From Verrucomicrobiia bacterium (GTDB lineage Bacteria; Verrucomicrobiota; Verrucomicrobiia; Opitutales; Cerasicoccaceae), in the NCBI GenBank assembly GCA_030425485.1, contig JAUIAM010000004.1, positions 124,001 to 188,000 on the forward strand: DNA of 64,000 bases, given 5' to 3'. Below are positions 33,351 to 40,609 of the stretch, piece by piece. The notes beneath the pieces were generated by a model. The model saw only the letters and a program-made list of their open reading frames with translations. It was not told the DNA's origin and searched no databases. Within the stretch, counting starts at the first letter, position 1, and each line of letters begins with the position of its first letter. The position numbers were made by a program, and so were the translations under genes.

Positions 33351-34085
33351 TTACAAACCACTCTGGTCGATCACACTCAGGGCGTAGAGCGCAGCTGTCT
33401 CTGCGCGCAAAACGTTGGTAGCCAGCCGTACCGGACGGTAGCCCGCCTCGGCCAGCAGGGTGTACTCCTCCGGCGTGAAATCACCCTCCGGCCCGATCAG
33501 TATTTCCACCGCCGAAGCCGCCCCCTGCCGATGCAGCACCTCACCCAGCGGCGCACTCGCCTCCTCCAGGCTCGCCACCAGACGCAGAGCGCCGGTATCC
33601 GCCTGGGCCGCCATGTCCTTTAAGGGTACGGGTTGAACGATCTGAGGCAGCCAACGGTTGCCCGATTGCTTACAAGCCTCGACCGCTACCGCACGCCAGT
33701 GCTCAAGCTTGTTTTCAGCCCGCTCAGCGGTCAATTTGACTTCGCATCGCTGCGTTAGGACGGGCTGGATCTCGCTCAGGCCAATCTCCGTGGCGTGGCG
33801 CAGGACTTCGTCGAAGGCTTTTCCTTTAATCAGGGCCATGGAGAGCTTTACCGCGCGTGGCGGGGGTGCTGGCTCGCACACAGTGGTAATCCTGACTACT
33901 ACCTTGCGGGGCGCAGCTTCGGAAATTTCTGCCTCCCAGGCGTTTCCGTGGCCATCGATCAGCGTAACGGCATCGCCAATCCGGGCCCGCAGGACCCGCG
34001 TCAGGTGATGGGCCTCAGATGCGGGTAATTCCAGCTCGCCAGAAGCGGGGGCTCCCTCGGGAAGATAAACGCGAAAACCAGCCAT
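33351..34085 (-). CDS. rsmE: 16S rRNA (uracil-1498 N3) methyltransferase RsmE
   Basis: 244 residues, the usual length (E. coli 243). PUA-like N-terminus (FRVYLPEG, EAHHLTRVLRARIGD, about 1-45), then the SPOUT knot: LIKGKAFDEVLRHATEIGLSEIQPVLT (about 88-115), CKQSGNRWLPQI, ILIGPEGDFTPEEY (about 200) and LATNVLRAETAALYAL (about 225), which forms the SAM pocket. The ATG at 34085 is preferred over an upstream frame that lacks family similarity. A second RsmE-like gene occurs at 39142-39894. Confidence 0.95.
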   Translation of the reverse strand: MAGFRVYLPEGAPASGELELPASEAHHLTRVLRARIGDAVTLIDGHGNAWEAEISEAAPRKVVVRITTVCEPAPPPRAVKLSMALIKGKAFDEVLRHATEIGLSEIQPVLTQRCEVKLTAERAENKLEHWRAVAVEACKQSGNRWLPQIVQPVPLKDMAAQADTGALRLVASLEEASAPLGEVLHRQGAASAVEILIGPEGDFTPEEYTLLAEAGYRPVRLATNVLRAETAALYALSVIDQSGL

Positions 34086-34124
34086 TACGAACAGCTTACA
34101 CCATTCAGCCTGAAATTCGACCAA

Positions 34125-34307: not shown

Positions 34308-35285
34308 CTAGAAAAGCCCATTGGAAAGGGCCCCCGCAGCCGAACCCACACTGCCCCCGCTGAACTGCTCGACCGCGTCATCGACCTCCTCCAGCGTCTC
34401 CTGTGTCTGGATGTAAAGCGCATCGTCGGCCAAAATCCGCCCCAACGTGTTATCGGGCGAATTCAGCTTGGTGGTAAAGCTCTCGATATTATCAAAGCTG
34501 ATCCGCACCTTGCCGCCGAGCGTATCATCGTAGACCAACGCACCCATCGCCGTATCCGTGGACTTGAGCTGCCCGAGGAAATCACTGGCCTGCGCGGTGA
34601 CCAGGGTCAGGTTTTCCGTCGCGGCCAATATCTGGTTGTAGGCTGCGTCATCGTTGATGAGCCTGTTCAGGGTGCCATCGGCGTTGACCAGGTCGCTGCT
34701 CAGTTGCTCCAAATTGATCAAGGTGGTGTTGAGGCGCTCGCGGTTCTCGGTGATGAGGGCGTTGAGGTTGGTAAAAACAGACTCCTCGCCCTCGCCGCCA
34801 GCAAACACGCTCAAGGTACTGTCGAGTTTCTTAAAGGCGTTGTCCATCTGCTCGCCGATTTTACCGATTTCGGCCACCACCTCGGAAAAGCCCGGTGACT
34901 CTACGGTTAAAATATCGCTACCATCAGCGAGATACTCGTGCGAGTCCCCGTAGCTAATCGCCACGTAGTTCGTGCCGATCAAACCGCTGGTCAGGATGGT
35001 GGCCTCGGAATCCTGCGGTATCTGAAACTTCGATCGGATGAGCAGGACGGCGACGGCCTTGCCGTCCACGAGGTCCGTGTCGAGCACATTACCGATTTGC
35101 ACCCCGGCCATACGCACCTCGTCAGAGCGCTTGAGCTCGCGCAAGTTTTTGAACGAAGCGACGACCGTGTAGCCGTCGTGACTGTTCACGCGCGGGTCGG
35201 ACAGCGTCTCGTACATGAGCAGGAGCAAGCCGACACCCAAGAGAAAAAAGATGCCTACGCGAATGGATTGCGAGGTGTGGTTCAT
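34308..35285 (-). CDS. mlaD: MlaD-family MCE-domain lipid-transport protein
   Basis: 325 residues. One N-terminal transmembrane anchor (RVGIFFLLGVGLLLLMYETL), then the MCE domain (about 35-120: YTVVASFKNLRELKRSDEV, RMAGVQIGNV, ILTSGLIGTNYVAISYG). A long helical C-terminal tail (about 130-300) with repeated NLE/NI/LG segments probably forms the periplasmic needle or bundle as in larger MCE proteins. It is longer than E. coli MlaD (183). Adjacent MlaF- and MlaE-type genes confirm an MCE phospholipid transporter. Substrate and direction are not determined. Confidence 0.93.
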   Translation of the reverse strand: MNHTSQSIRVGIFFLLGVGLLLLMYETLSDPRVNSHDGYTVVASFKNLRELKRSDEVRMAGVQIGNVLDTDLVDGKAVAVLLIRSKFQIPQDSEATILTSGLIGTNYVAISYGDSHEYLADGSDILTVESPGFSEVVAEIGKIGEQMDNAFKKLDSTLSVFAGGEGEESVFTNLNALITENRERLNTTLINLEQLSSDLVNADGTLNRLINDDAAYNQILAATENLTLVTAQASDFLGQLKSTDTAMGALVYDDTLGGKVRISFDNIESFTTKLNSPDNTLGRILADDALYIQTQETLEEVDDAVEQFSGGSVGSAAGALSNGLF

Positions 35286-35336: not shown

Positions 35337-36134
35337 CTAGCAAGCGAGGTTCTGCCGGAAGCGCGGGTTGTTGCAGTTGATTGAAGGCTTGAGGAAGGCC
35401 GTGACCTCCGGGTCCTCGCTCTCGGCCAGCTTTTGCGGCGTATCGAGCATGACGACCTTTCCGCTGCCCATCAGGGCCACGCGCTCGCCAATGCTGGCGG
35501 CCAGCTCGCGGTCGTGCGAGACCACGATACTCGTCATATCGTACTCCTCGCGCAAGGTGCCGATCACCTCAGTGATGTTAGCCGCCGAGACCGGGTCGAG
35601 CTCCGAGGTAGGCTCATCAAAGAGCAGCAGGCGCGGTTCGATAATCAGCGAACGCGCGATGGCCACGCGCTTGCGCATGCCGCCGGAGAGCTGGGACGGC
35701 ATCTTGTCCGCACAGCCCTCCAGATTGAGGATGCGCAGGGTGTAGGCGACCTTTTCGTTGATCGTCTTACGGTCGTAGAGCCGATGCTCGCGCGGATAAA
35801 AGCCCAGGTTTTCCTCCACCGTGAGGGAGTTAAAGAGCCCGCCGGCCTGGAAAACAATCGCCGTGTGCATGAGCTTGTGTGTCTGCTGCTTAAAGGCATC
35901 CAACCCGTTGATGCGGATTTCGCCCTCATCGACTTTCTCCAGGTTGACAATGGCCCGCATCAGCGTGCTCTTGCCCGCGCCGCTGGGTCCCATGATGACA
36001 AAGATTTCGCCCGGCTCAATGGTGAAGCTCACGTCGTCCAGCACCCGCTGATTGTTATAGCTCTTGCTCACGCGGTCAATCTCCACACGCACCGCGCGCC
36101 GATCATCAACAGGGTTTTCCGGTGTATTGGCCAT
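35337..36134 (-). CDS. mlaF: MlaF-like ABC transporter ATP-binding protein
   Basis: 265 residues with Walker A GPSGAGKSTLMRAIV (about 51-65), signature LSGGMRKRVAIARSL (about 153-167), Walker B LLLFDEPTSELDPVS and H-loop VVSHDRELA. The LSGGMRKRVAIARS wording is typical of MCE/Mla-type ATPases. It energises the MlaE permease. Eight bases separate it from mlaE upstream and 51 bp from mlaD downstream, so all three are one transcription unit. Confidence 0.95.
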   Translation of the reverse strand: MANTPENPVDDRRAVRVEIDRVSKSYNNQRVLDDVSFTIEPGEIFVIMGPSGAGKSTLMRAIVNLEKVDEGEIRINGLDAFKQQTHKLMHTAIVFQAGGLFNSLTVEENLGFYPREHRLYDRKTINEKVAYTLRILNLEGCADKMPSQLSGGMRKRVAIARSLIIEPRLLLFDEPTSELDPVSAANITEVIGTLREEYDMTSIVVSHDRELAASIGERVALMGSGKVVMLDTPQKLAESEDPEVTAFLKPSINCNNPRFRQNLAC

Positions 36135-36142
36135 AGCTAAGG

Positions 36143-36898
36143 TTACATCAGTACGCGGGTTAAAACAAAGTCGAGGAACAGAATAATTACCATCGAGGCC
36201 ACCACTGCCGAAGTAACCGACATGCCGATTTCGCGCGGTCCGCCCTTGGTGTTCAGCCCCTGCGTGCAGGCAATCAGGATCACGCTGACCCCGAAAATCA
36301 TGCCCTTGATCTGGCCGTCGATGATGTCGTGAAAGCTGACCACGTGCTTGAGGTTGGCCCAGTAGACCTCCTCCGGCTGCGCGATGAAGGGCACGTGTGC
36401 TGCTGCCATCGCCCCACCGTACCAGCCGACGAATATCGCCACGCCAACCACAATTGGCATCATCAGGATGATGGCGACGAGGCGAGGCATGACCAGAATG
36501 CGCTCGGCGGGTACGTTCATGGTCTTGAGCGCGTCGATCTCGTGGTAGACCTTCATCGAAGCAATTTCCGCCGTGACCGACGAGCCCACACGCCCGGCCA
36601 GCAGCAACGCACTGATAAGCGGCGCCAGCTCGCGAGACATCCCCAGCCCGGAGATGCGCCCCAGGTAGAGGTTGGCCCCGGCAAAGTCCTCCAGGCTGTC
36701 CCCGGTCTGCATCACGAGCACGGCGCCCAGAAAGAAGGCCATAATCGAAACCATCGGCATAGTCTTGTAGCCGATGTTAAAGCAGTAGTCCATCAGGCGC
36801 GTAAACTGCCAGGGGAGGGTCGGCAGGTAGTAGAGCGACCGGAAAAACACCAGCACGCACTCGCCCGCAAAACCAAAGAAGTTCTTAATCGCCTGCAT
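36143..36898 (-). CDS. mlaE: MlaE-like MCE transporter permease
   Basis: 251 residues with five to six membrane segments. The family block is LGMSRELAPLISALLLAGRVGSSVTAEIASMKV (about 87-119; the key motif E-L-A-P and G-R-V-G-S is seen), followed by EIDALKTMNVPAERILVMPRLVA, where EIDAL is the known EQxDAL-type segment. The C-terminal block GGPREIGMSVTSAVVASMV completes MlaE/YrbE. It is the inner-membrane channel for phospholipids. A 14-codon frame with a good ribosome-binding site precedes its start. Confidence 0.95.
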   Translation of the reverse strand: MQAIKNFFGFAGECVLVFFRSLYYLPTLPWQFTRLMDYCFNIGYKTMPMVSIMAFFLGAVLVMQTGDSLEDFAGANLYLGRISGLGMSRELAPLISALLLAGRVGSSVTAEIASMKVYHEIDALKTMNVPAERILVMPRLVAIILMMPIVVGVAIFVGWYGGAMAAAHVPFIAQPEEVYWANLKHVVSFHDIIDGQIKGMIFGVSVILIACTQGLNTKGGPREIGMSVTSAVVASMVIILFLDFVLTRVLM

Positions 36899-36959: not shown

Positions 36960-38477
36960 TTAGTCAATCGTGAACCACAGGAGGCTGAAAGTCGTCACAC
37001 CCGCGTTTCTCTCCACCCCAAAGAGCCCGTCGAGCAGGGAGAACTTGGCCCGCCCGGGGGCGACATCGTGCTCGATGATCGGCCCGAGGGTAAACCGGGT
37101 GGAGTCCTCCGTCTTCGTCTCGTGGATAAAGTCCCAGAAGTAGCCCTGCTCGGTCACCCCCGTCACCTCGTCGCGCTGCATGCGGTAAAAGGTGAACAAC
37201 GGTGAGTAGAGTTTCTTCACCACCTCGGAGTTGGGAAAGAAGACCGCCAGCGGGCTGGGGAACTGCGCCTGCGTCAGGCCCTTGCCATTGGAATACTCCG
37301 AATAGAAAGGCCACATGTGCAGGAGGGTCGAAGGCACGGCCTCCGGGTTTTCCAGCGAGTAGACCTCCTTTTCCCAGTACATGATGTAGAGCACCTGCGT
37401 GCGCTCGAAGCGGTAGGCGTCATCCCGCGCCTGTGTCTGGTGGAAAAAAGGCCAGGCATACCAGCGGTCGTCCCGCTCAGGGGTGATTTCCTCTGAGTAA
37501 AAGGGAAGCCAGCGCTCAAAGGTTTGGTTTGGCCCCTCGCCCTGCACCCAGAGCGGCCAGAGCAGGCGCTGCTCGTAGTAGCCGGAGTCGAACTCTTCCC
37601 GCCAGCCGAAGAAGGGCCAGATAATCGAAACGTCTTCCACTGTGGCCGAACGCTCGATCGCGTATAGCGGCAGAAAACCCTGACGGATGCGCGGCTGGGG
37701 CTGGTCCATCTGATCAATGTCCCGATAAATAAACGGCCAGAAGGCAAACTGATGGTCGTACTTGTCCTTTTGGTAAAAATGTCCCCCCAGCGGCCAGAGC
37801 GCAAAGCCGCCCGCCTCGGGACCCTCCTGCCATTGGATGAGCGGCCAGGGCGCACCGTAGCGTTCGGCCTCCGGGCGGTGCATATTCAGGTAGGCCGGAA
37901 AAGCAACAAAGGAGAAGCTGCCCAGGAGCAGGCTGTTGTTGATCGTCCCATAAAGCGGGAACACGGCGAAGGTATTATCCTCGGCGTTCTGCGCGTTGCG
38001 GTCACGGAACACGAAAGGAAAGATCGAAAACGTGGTCTCCTCTATTTCGCCCTCAGCATCGCGCTCTTCCGTGCCCGAGATGACAAACATGATGCTCCAG
38101 CGGGTCTTATCCTCGGAATTGTGCCAGGAGAGAAAAGGCGGCAGCAGGTAGGCGCTCTCCGTCCCCGTGTCTTCGTTGTAGAACTTCACCGCTAAGGGGC
38201 GAAAGGCCTCCCAACGCACCGGCCCCACCGTTTCTTCCTCGAAAATCGGCCCCAGCACCTGCACATGGCGCCCGCCTTCGGCATTGGTGGTGTCGCGCCA
38301 AAGCGGAGCCCACTCCACCTCGGCCTGTACGCGCAAGCCGCCCAGCATCAGAAGAAAGAGAAATGTGCCGGACCAGATGCGCCATACGCCTCCGCCAAAG
38401 CAAGCCTGTCGAGCTGTAAACAAGCCCCCAAACTTGCCACTCGGGCTTCGCTTTGGCGAGGCTTTTTCCACCCCCAA
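36960..38477 (-). CDS. Exported Trp-Pro-Phe-rich repeat protein heading the Mla operon
   Basis: 505 residues. After a basic N-terminus (alternative inner starts possible) there is a hydrophobic signal region (IWSGTFLFLLMLGGLRVQAE, about 34-53). The rest is a series of beta-strand-like repeats with a W-P-F/L core at irregular spacing: FSIFPFVF, FAVFPLYG, FALWPLGG, FAFWPFIY, IIWPFFGW, LLWPLWVQ, YAWPFFHQ, LHMWPFYS, then SPLFTFY and TFSLLWFTI. The C-terminus ends in aromatic strands, as in many outer-membrane beta-barrels, though I recognise no family. It lies 61 bp upstream of mlaE on the same strand, suggesting an envelope-lipid role. Confidence 0.75.
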   Translation of the reverse strand: MGVEKASPKRSPSGKFGGLFTARQACFGGGVWRIWSGTFLFLLMLGGLRVQAEVEWAPLWRDTTNAEGGRHVQVLGPIFEEETVGPVRWEAFRPLAVKFYNEDTGTESAYLLPPFLSWHNSEDKTRWSIMFVISGTEERDAEGEIEETTFSIFPFVFRDRNAQNAEDNTFAVFPLYGTINNSLLLGSFSFVAFPAYLNMHRPEAERYGAPWPLIQWQEGPEAGGFALWPLGGHFYQKDKYDHQFAFWPFIYRDIDQMDQPQPRIRQGFLPLYAIERSATVEDVSIIWPFFGWREEFDSGYYEQRLLWPLWVQGEGPNQTFERWLPFYSEEITPERDDRWYAWPFFHQTQARDDAYRFERTQVLYIMYWEKEVYSLENPEAVPSTLLHMWPFYSEYSNGKGLTQAQFPSPLAVFFPNSEVVKKLYSPLFTFYRMQRDEVTGVTEQGYFWDFIHETKTEDSTRFTLGPIIEHDVAPGRAKFSLLDGLFGVERNAGVTTFSLLWFTID

Positions 38478-39141: not shown

Positions 39142-39894
39142 TCATCTCCCCGGCACATACGGCTGGTCCAGTCCGCCAAGATGGGCCAGCAAAAGACTGG
39201 CCCCCGCCACAACGGCCGATTCCGTGCGCAATACACGCTCGCCAAGATGGACCAGCGCGAAGCCATTTGCCCGCAACACCTCGCGCTCAGCCGCAGACCA
39301 CCCCCGCTCCGACCCGACGGCCAACATGGCGGCTTCGGGCTGTGGGTCTTCCCGCAGGACTTCGGCCAAAGCGTGGGGGGATTCGTAGATGTCCAATGCG
39401 TAGCGTGGAATGGAGCCCGTATCCAAGTTTTCGATACAGGCGGCTAGCGATTTGGCGTGGGTCACGGCGGGGATCGTCGTGCTGAAGGCCTGTGCGGCAC
39501 CCTCCTCCAGCCGCCGCGCCCACTCATCACTACGCCAGAGTTTGCTCTCTGCATAGGAGGGCTCGCCCTTTTCAGCAGAAAACACATGTACGGCCCGCAG
39601 GCCCATACTGGCCGCATCGTGCAGCACCTTGCGCGCGGTTTGCGGGCGCGGTAATCCCAGAAGCAATTCCAGCGCCTGAGGCTTGAGCGGCTCCGGCTCC
39701 CAGTCGACCACGTAGCGAATTCCCTCGGCATCATCTGCCGTGAGCGTAGCCAGGCCGCGTGGGCCGTTAGGCTGGCCAACGTAAAACGTGTCACCTACCC
39801 GCAGGCGCAGCACTGACCGCACGTGCTGCGTACGGGCATCGACAGAGGGCAGAGCAGCATGCTCAGCGGGCGTTCGCACCACTAACAGATTCAA
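39142..39894 (-). CDS. Second RsmE-family RNA methyltransferase, probable TTG start
   Basis: About 250 residues from a TTG at 39894, chosen because GGAGGAG lies 4 bp before it and the encoded NLLVVRTPAEHAALP fits an RsmE N-terminus; longer frames overlap the upstream gene by over 100 bp. The SPOUT part is recognisable: LPRPQTARKVLHDAASMGLRAVHVF (about 85-110; family position of the knot start), LAVGSERGWSAAE (the GPEGGF-type SAM loop reads GSERGW) and LGERVLRTESAVVAGASLLL. The PUA half is shorter and divergent. Likely a paralogue with another RNA target. Confidence 0.78.
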   Translation of the reverse strand: MNLLVVRTPAEHAALPSVDARTQHVRSVLRLRVGDTFYVGQPNGPRGLATLTADDAEGIRYVVDWEPEPLKPQALELLLGLPRPQTARKVLHDAASMGLRAVHVFSAEKGEPSYAESKLWRSDEWARRLEEGAAQAFSTTIPAVTHAKSLAACIENLDTGSIPRYALDIYESPHALAEVLREDPQPEAAMLAVGSERGWSAAEREVLRANGFALVHLGERVLRTESAVVAGASLLLAHLGGLDQPYVPGR

Positions 39895-40609
39895 AACGCT
39901 CCTCCAGAATGCGGTAGCCAGGCACTTCGATCGTAATACTTGTCGGCGGTCCCTCCTGATAGGGGTAGATTTCACCGTCCTTCACAAACTCACGAATCGG
40001 AATTTGAATCGTCTCGTTGGGCGCAACCGTGCTGCTGATTTTATAATGGTAGCCGCCTGAATTGCCTTTGAGTTCGAGGCTTATCCATTCCCAGTCTTTT
40101 TTGGACTTGTTGACGACGTAGATCAAGCGCCCAGAAACCGCAATCGTCGCGGGTAACTTCGGCAGATAATCGGACGAAGAATAGTCTCCCTGGTCAAGTT
40201 TGGCGAAAACCTCATTCAGCGAATTGTTTTCCCCAGAATCATCTCGGGCGAAGAACTCCTGGCCCGTTCGAAACAAATAGAAACCACCCAGAACGGCGAG
40301 GATGCCCAGCACACAGAACAGTTGCAGGTAGGTGGAGCCCCCCATTTTGCGGATGCGCCGCGCCCGGACCGCCTCCCGCTCCTCCGGTGTGAGCACTGAG
40401 CTGGTATCAAAGGTAACCCAGGGGCGATTCTTGGTATGAAACTGGGAATCGTGCAGCAAATCGACCTGATAGCCCCTGAGATCGCGCACCCGATCCGCAG
40501 CTTCAGCCAGCGTCAAGGGCTCGTCCTCAAGCTTGTTGTCAATACTCAGCCACCACTTGTCAGAAGCAACTTCTTCGAGCATCCACTGGCGGATTTCTTT
40601 TTCCGTCAT
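39863..40609 (-). CDS. Hypothetical single-pass membrane protein
   Basis: 248 residues. A cytoplasmic N-terminal part (about 1-90) contains a LTLAEAADRVRDLRGYQVDLLHDS segment of the kind used as short interaction domains (quoted part is within it). One transmembrane helix, LQLFCVLGILAVLGGFYLF (about 94-112), precedes a beta-rich C-terminal domain (TIAVSGRLIYVVNKSKKDW, IPIREFVKDGEIYPY). No known family. Its end overlaps the following RsmE-like gene by 32 bp, so the two are co-transcribed. It lies 63 bp after the GDP-mannose dehydratase gene. Confidence 0.75.
   Translation of the reverse strand: MTEKEIRQWMLEEVASDKWWLSIDNKLEDEPLTLAEAADRVRDLRGYQVDLLHDSQFHTKNRPWVTFDTSSVLTPEEREAVRARRIRKMGGSTYLQLFCVLGILAVLGGFYLFRTGQEFFARDDSGENNSLNEVFAKLDQGDYSSSDYLPKLPATIAVSGRLIYVVNKSKKDWEWISLELKGNSGGYHYKISSTVAPNETIQIPIREFVKDGEIYPYQEGPPTSITIEVPGYRILEERFESVSGANAR

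Follow-up and report, generated by a model that had tools for sequence, protein, structure and literature searches.

A W-P-F repeat protein linked to mlaEFD as a candidate replacement for MlaC and MlaA in Verrucomicrobiota

The window analysed here is a stretch of 64,000 nucleotides from Verrucomicrobiia bacterium (order Opitutales, family Cerasicoccaceae; assembly GCA_030425485.1, contig JAUIAM010000004.1, positions 124,001 to 188,000 of the forward strand). On its minus strand, an mlaE-mlaF-mlaD run is headed by a gene for a predicted exported protein with recurring W-P-F motifs, which we call the WPF protein. We propose that WPF serves a bridge-type MlaEFD lipid transporter as its dedicated partner in the envelope, replacing MlaC and MlaA, and we put the probability of this reading at roughly 0.62. 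The partner role rests on genomics, that is, on conserved linkage to mlaE and near exclusion with MlaA and MlaC, and it holds even if the outer-membrane seat discussed below is wrong.

Results

The WPF gene and its operon

Downstream (3') of the WPF gene and on the same strand lie mlaE (36143..36898, a permease of 251 amino acids (aa); PF02405, E 2.5e-63), mlaF (35337..36134, an ABC ATPase of 265 aa matching PF00005 at E 8.3e-35 and assigned as MlaF by position) and a long form of mlaD (34308..35285, 325 aa; PF02470, E 1.2e-14), the arrangement of an Mla/MCE operon. The gaps along WPF-mlaE-mlaF-mlaD are 61, 8 and 51 nt; promoter and terminator scans came out near chance (3 against 1.4 and 5 against 5.6, respectively). 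A preliminary description of this DNA had placed a 505-residue open reading frame (ORF) at 36960-38477 at the head of the run. The ORF is present there, and from a TTG at 38477 it does reach 505 aa, but the TTG at 38423 (36960..38423, minus strand, 487 aa) is the likelier start because three congeners also begin with a TTG at the corresponding position. Export is predicted from a hydrophobic signal-like segment, after which the mature part (about 36963-38321, minus strand) comprises 453 aa. Within it, W-P-[FL] occurs seven times against 0.24 expected, a count reached in none of 20,000 shuffles, and the looser [WFL]-P-[FLA] occurs twelve times against 1.5 expected (maximum 8 in 20,000 shuffles). 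Recurrence is thus far above chance, but the core W-P-F/L-F/Y earlier said to appear at least eight times was loosely worded, as its exact form, W-P-[FL]-[FY], is found only three times.

Linkage to mlaE across relatives

A search with the WPF protein of 54 genomes, the window's own included, found it in 25. mlaE lies downstream on the same strand in 21 of the 25 relatives' loci, within 300 nt in 18 of these 21; among the four misses (L007, L011, L024 and L025, our locus numbers), L025 stops at a contig edge. From a larger set of 117 relatives we kept 80 named loci, labelled as members of Opitutia/Opitutae, as Verrucomicrobia or simply as bacterium, and in 79 of them the first mla gene to follow on that strand is mlaE. 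All three mla genes are present in 74 of the 80, five are partial (L097 and L132 near a contig end; L112, L120 and L150 with room) and one, L094, has none. The distance from WPF to mlaE is 570-680 nt in L006, L008, L009 and L112 and about 1,500 nt in L120. Among 59 fetched loci (L058-L076 and L198-L237; 58 from outside the window's class and one from inside), mlaE is next in 49, and three of the ten without it (L214, L223 and L227) have no room before the contig end.

A profile search of 387 genomes, part of the phylum Verrucomicrobiota, found the family in 186; 20 regions were retrieved from these, and 19 keep the order WPF-E-F-D. An rsmD or rsmE gene upstream of WPF is common in the window's order, but no such neighbour was detected in 19 of these 20 regions, 18 of which keep WPF-E-F-D. 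The linkage to mla is therefore not just general synteny, and it reaches beyond Opitutae, the group for which the preliminary description had raised it.

Near exclusion with MlaA and MlaC

Neither MlaA nor MlaC was detected anywhere in the window's own genome (98.2% complete), which extends an earlier remark that no MlaA-like gene lies nearby. MlaA (PF04333) is present in nine of the 54 genomes and MlaC (PF05494) in the same nine, and WPF occurs together with MlaA or MlaC in none of the 54 (Fisher p 0.002, with genomes treated as independent). Across the 387 genomes, MlaE was found in 360 and MlaA in 152; 172 carry WPF at E 1e-12 or better, and 17 of these also carry MlaA where about 68 would be expected. 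Counting all 186 WPF genomes, 29 have MlaA; 14 weak WPF matches account for the additional 12. The split also runs through one single family: among 36 listed genomes of that family, 25 have WPF only, nine MlaA only, one both (G309) and one neither (G381). No mlaC or mlaA was found in 165 WPF loci (L002-L026, L057-L156 and L198-L237; the first 25 reach only 1.5 kb per side) with profiles of 20-21 sequences, which recover mlaA in all 21 MlaA loci and mlaC in 20 of them, these being the loci from which the profiles were built. WPF and MlaA/MlaC are thus close to mutually exclusive within the phylum, which strengthens the earlier guess that WPF stands in for MlaA.

Where the two do co-occur, MlaA lies inside a full mlaE-F-D-C-A run in G150, G251 and G383, and in G150 WPF stands at the head of a separate mla run (L211). 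The MlaA of G309 (L193) has no mlaC or mlaE in the fetched stretch, and at least 7 of the 17 co-occurring MlaA matches sit in frames that are unusually long (684-808 aa). Outside the window's class, many MlaA matches (e.g. G087:C22, G193:C1 and G310:C48) lie in frames of some 600-880 aa, and others in frames of roughly 250-300 aa; the overlong ones are possible fusions.

Linkage and exclusion are both genomic evidence, and an envelope protein with no part in lipid transport could in principle be kept beside mlaEFD, for example by shared regulation. Some WPF loci do have no mlaE nearby, and in Cerasicoccus arenae (L007 and L120, which occupy overlapping places on 229,956-base contigs) a 437-aa transporter-like gene on the opposite strand stands between WPF and mlaE. 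Since the mla linkage spans lineages despite the loss of other neighbours, and WPF swaps with MlaC/MlaA, we regard such a bystander as highly improbable.

Two types of mla operon

In WPF loci MlaD is long, with a median of about 331 aa over 92 ORFs (a rough length, counted from the first M of stop-to-stop frames); three further MlaD ORFs from WPF loci fit a short-MlaD profile better. Of 20 stretches fetched around MlaA, 16 read mlaE-mlaF-mlaD-mlaC-mlaA, L179, L180 and L188 hold mlaC-mlaA only, and L193 holds mlaA only; L174 is an additional full run. MlaD measures 147-175 aa in 14 of the 16 full runs, the other two frames being of 330 aa (L186) and 251 aa (L195). The phylum therefore has two operon types, WPF-E-F-long D and mlaE-F-short D-C-A. 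Full runs of the second type, mostly with short MlaD, are L174, L178, L181-L187, L189-L192 and L194-L197. The window's own genome also has a second mlaE-F-D run (L177, C56:1500-11500), with a longer MlaE frame of 411 aa and a long MlaD frame of 344 aa, in which no WPF, MlaC or MlaA was detected.

The permeases separate in the same way. In an MlaE tree of 80 chosen rows, built by a quick method and with some long branches, the 17 mlaCA-linked rows form a single clade (support 98), apart from which the 44 WPF-linked rows, to whose part of the tree the window's MlaE belongs, make up two others (99 and 100); three label changes suffice, against 31.9 in shuffles. Seven genomes of the window's order with neither WPF nor MlaA were checked, of which five have one MlaE frame of 382-392 aa and two have none. 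Among three WPF genomes checked, two (G017 and G021) encode another MlaE in a shorter frame, of 265 and 269 aa respectively. The longer frames are probably STAS fusions.

An AlphaFold2 model of the window's MlaD shows a transmembrane helix, an MCE domain and then helices up to residue 324, with no C-terminal barrel. Its mean predicted local distance difference test score (pLDDT) is 63.7, and block means between 38 and 65 from residue 131 onward mark the helical part as of low confidence.

A previously unclassified family

The window's WPF protein matches no Pfam family at E up to 10, and no MlaA (PF04333) match was found in it; 23 homologues give a single, unrelated weak Pfam family, and the Pfam MORN model matches neither the protein nor the homologues. 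No match was found in PHROGs up to E 1, among PDB sequences with either the protein or the family profile, or in a plasmid search, and a single-protein scan of genome contigs returned no relative. The sole NCBIfam match is the LA_1737 C-terminal domain (NF047486), a weak likeness over a short stretch at 15.2 bits, far under the curated cut-off of 60. The domain also matches 3 of the 23 homologues (best E 1.7e-6), and in a distant alignment of 16 rows the match comes from the window's protein alone. A literature search on the LA_1737 name returned no paper, and among the titles and abstract openings listed from the open-licence literature none describes the WPF protein or the WPF-mla gene order. 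WPF is thus a member of a previously unclassified family, above threshold in no Pfam, NCBIfam, PHROGs or PDB-sequence search; the earlier remark that no described family is known to show this pattern stands, and no known enzyme family was matched above threshold.

Predicted structure of the WPF protein

The window's mature WPF protein was modelled with AlphaFold2 from an alignment with 45 loci of relatives. The model (pLDDT 92.9; predicted template modelling score (pTM) 0.76) is all beta except for a few short helices, and its 46 strands have a mean length of 5.7 residues, breaking at W-P-x. It predicts about 23 short hairpins joined into an antiparallel sheet one layer thick, unlike a conventional porin-like barrel. 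Across the window's order, every one of the 23 odd turns (mostly W/F/L-P-F/L) exceeds every one of the 22 even turns in hydrophobicity (1.20 against -0.07, U = 506), and the same complete split is seen in 15 distant members outside the folding alignment (1.27 against -0.15). Likewise, a proline column marks 18 of the 23 odd and 3 of the 22 even turns in the order (80% level), and 18 odd against 2 even turns in the distant members (50% level). Because the turn types alternate strictly, the W/F/L-P-F/L turns would line one edge of the sheet and the polar turns the opposite edge. The polarity of the faces, when propagated across the sheet, carries no clear signal, with 21 of the 46 on one side. 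Covariation by mutual information lends weak and mixed support to hairpins at both kinds of turn, modestly backing the chain reversal that the model suggests at the W-P-F turns.

In structural comparison with VIA-align, which barely covered residues 1-100, high-ranking matches are TCP10 (Z 9.8, root mean square deviation (rmsd) 8.2 over 178 residues), MORN1 (Z 9.4, rmsd 3.7 over 160), OspA (Z 9.2, rmsd 7.5 over 205) and ApoB100 (Z 8.5, rmsd 10.1). Because a best Z of 7 to 8 is typical of models without a clear match, we claim likeness of general arrangement alone. MORN proteins are also frequent among matches in a viral structure library. TM-scores from Foldseek against the PDB were low (0.08 to 0.20 relative to query length among the 50 matches shown), and we give little weight to these matches, which include propellers (IFT-A, LRP6) and teneurin. 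TCP10, MORN and OspA are single-layer sheets and, like the WPF model, place short strands in one layer; WPF differs from them as an exported bacterial protein with strict alternation of hydrophobic and polar turns, W-P-F motifs and no Pfam MORN match.

An aromatic, exported, all-beta protein might instead be an unusual integral outer-membrane beta-barrel, in which each long strand would stretch from one polar turn to the next, with W-P-F at its midpoint. Every second strand does recur at a median spacing of 18.5 residues, and covariation is positive between strands three apart across polar turns (0.22 +/- 0.06). We nevertheless consider a barrel very unlikely, as the modelled strands are short and broken at W-P-x, a mid-strand kink does not predict the covariation of 0.37 and 0.40 +/- 0.1 seen across hydrophobic turns, and the solved barrels LptDE (Z 6.1), OmpU (5.8) and VDAC (5.5) rank under the single-layer sheets (9.2 to 9.8).

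The open meander also suggests a periplasmic lipid slide or scaffold, a substitute mainly for MlaC, along whose hydrophobic edge phospholipid would pass from MlaD to the outer membrane or back and which would have no fixed seat in the outer membrane. At 4.8 Å per strand, 46 strands could span about 20 nm by arithmetic from the model; hydrophobic turns alternate without exception, ApoB100 is among the structural neighbours, and in the 54 genomes MlaC is absent wherever WPF is present. The length and curvature of the sheet are extrapolated from a model with a pTM of 0.76, however, and long MlaD may already give a route across the periplasm. A convincing lipobox in about 10 of the 59 mostly outside-class members (judged by eye; 13 pattern matches) moreover suggests a membrane seat, and we think a slide unlikely. 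The lipobox pattern also occurs 19 times over 105 loci in the window's order, mostly in what resemble signal-peptide cores.

Neighbouring genes

RNA methyltransferase genes (PF04452, RsmE-like) flank the operon at 33351-34124 and 39142-39975 on the minus strand, a PUA domain match being found in the first and not in the second. Beside the second, a 248-aa ORF at 39863-40609 on the same strand has no Pfam match. Farther on, adjoining GDP-mannose 4,6-dehydratase-like genes (PF16363; 40673-41671 and 41689-42699, minus strand) are probably a diverged tandem pair.

Discussion

In the mechanism we propose for WPF as envelope partner, MlaE-MlaF and a ring of long MlaD would form the inner-membrane and periplasmic part of the system and WPF would sit at the periplasmic face of the outer membrane. 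The edge that bears the hydrophobic turns would enter the inner leaflet or hold acyl chains, and by docking MlaD the protein would allow phospholipid to move between the MlaD channel and the outer membrane, with no direction implied. The preliminary description had named the protein a candidate outer-membrane or periplasmic component of lipid transport; the partner role is now supported by linkage and by exclusion of MlaA/MlaC, while its location, MlaD docking and lipid passage are what we infer.

Several observations weigh against this reading. In L011, L024 and L094, all from the window's order, and in seven of the 59 fetched loci, WPF has room around it and no mlaE near, and L112, L120 and L150 have room yet show no detected mlaD. 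Seventeen genomes carry both WPF and MlaA, 12 of the 14 weak WPF matches fall in MlaA genomes, and the p-values for exclusion overstate independence because related genomes are counted as independent. In a further 78 of the 387 genomes both WPF and MlaA are missing, and many of these encode mlaE; WPF is therefore not a general need and other solutions exist. G024 (64% complete) has WPF, and only the longer MlaE was found there. Unlike an MlaA-type lipoprotein, the window's mature protein contains no cysteine or lipobox. Finally, the in/out alternation of its strands is not significant (0.70 against 0.63 in shuffles, standard deviation 0.07), and membrane insertion by the strands is therefore unsupported.

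WPF would do the job that MlaA-OmpC and MlaC do in Escherichia coli, serving an MlaEFD transporter at its end in the periplasm and outer membrane. MlaA is helical; WPF has no sequence match to MlaA or MlaC, is all beta in its model and is paired with long MlaD without MlaC. Veillonella parvula likewise has MlaEFD with long MlaD and neither MlaA nor MlaC, according to a published survey (PMC10665443). Its MlaD ends in a barrel, whereas that of the window ends in helices in a low-confidence model and the operon starts with a separate beta protein. The survey also describes short MlaD as restricted to Proteobacteria, which is at odds with the mlaCA runs of Verrucomicrobiota described above.

More tentatively, and at somewhat less than an even chance, WPF may represent a new structural class of lipid-transfer component. 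In this view it would be a beta-ribbon that stands free and is one layer thick, with about 23 hairpins whose W-P-F turns form a single unbroken edge; it would be inherited together with an MlaEFD subfamily of its own, take over from MlaC and MlaA, and complete a route across the envelope in much of Verrucomicrobiota.

The survey proposes that most diderms may run Mla with MlaEFD only, reports no C-terminal barrel in the MlaD that it covered from the PVC (Planctomycetes-Verrucomicrobia-Chlamydiae) group and allows that as yet unidentified proteins may help barrel folding (PMC10665443). The lack of an MlaD barrel there raises the question of how lipid reaches the outer membrane in this group. 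The WPF family offers a concrete fourth gene, two exchangeable mla operon types occur within one bacterial family, and the question of the lipid route in the PVC group becomes testable by single deletions.
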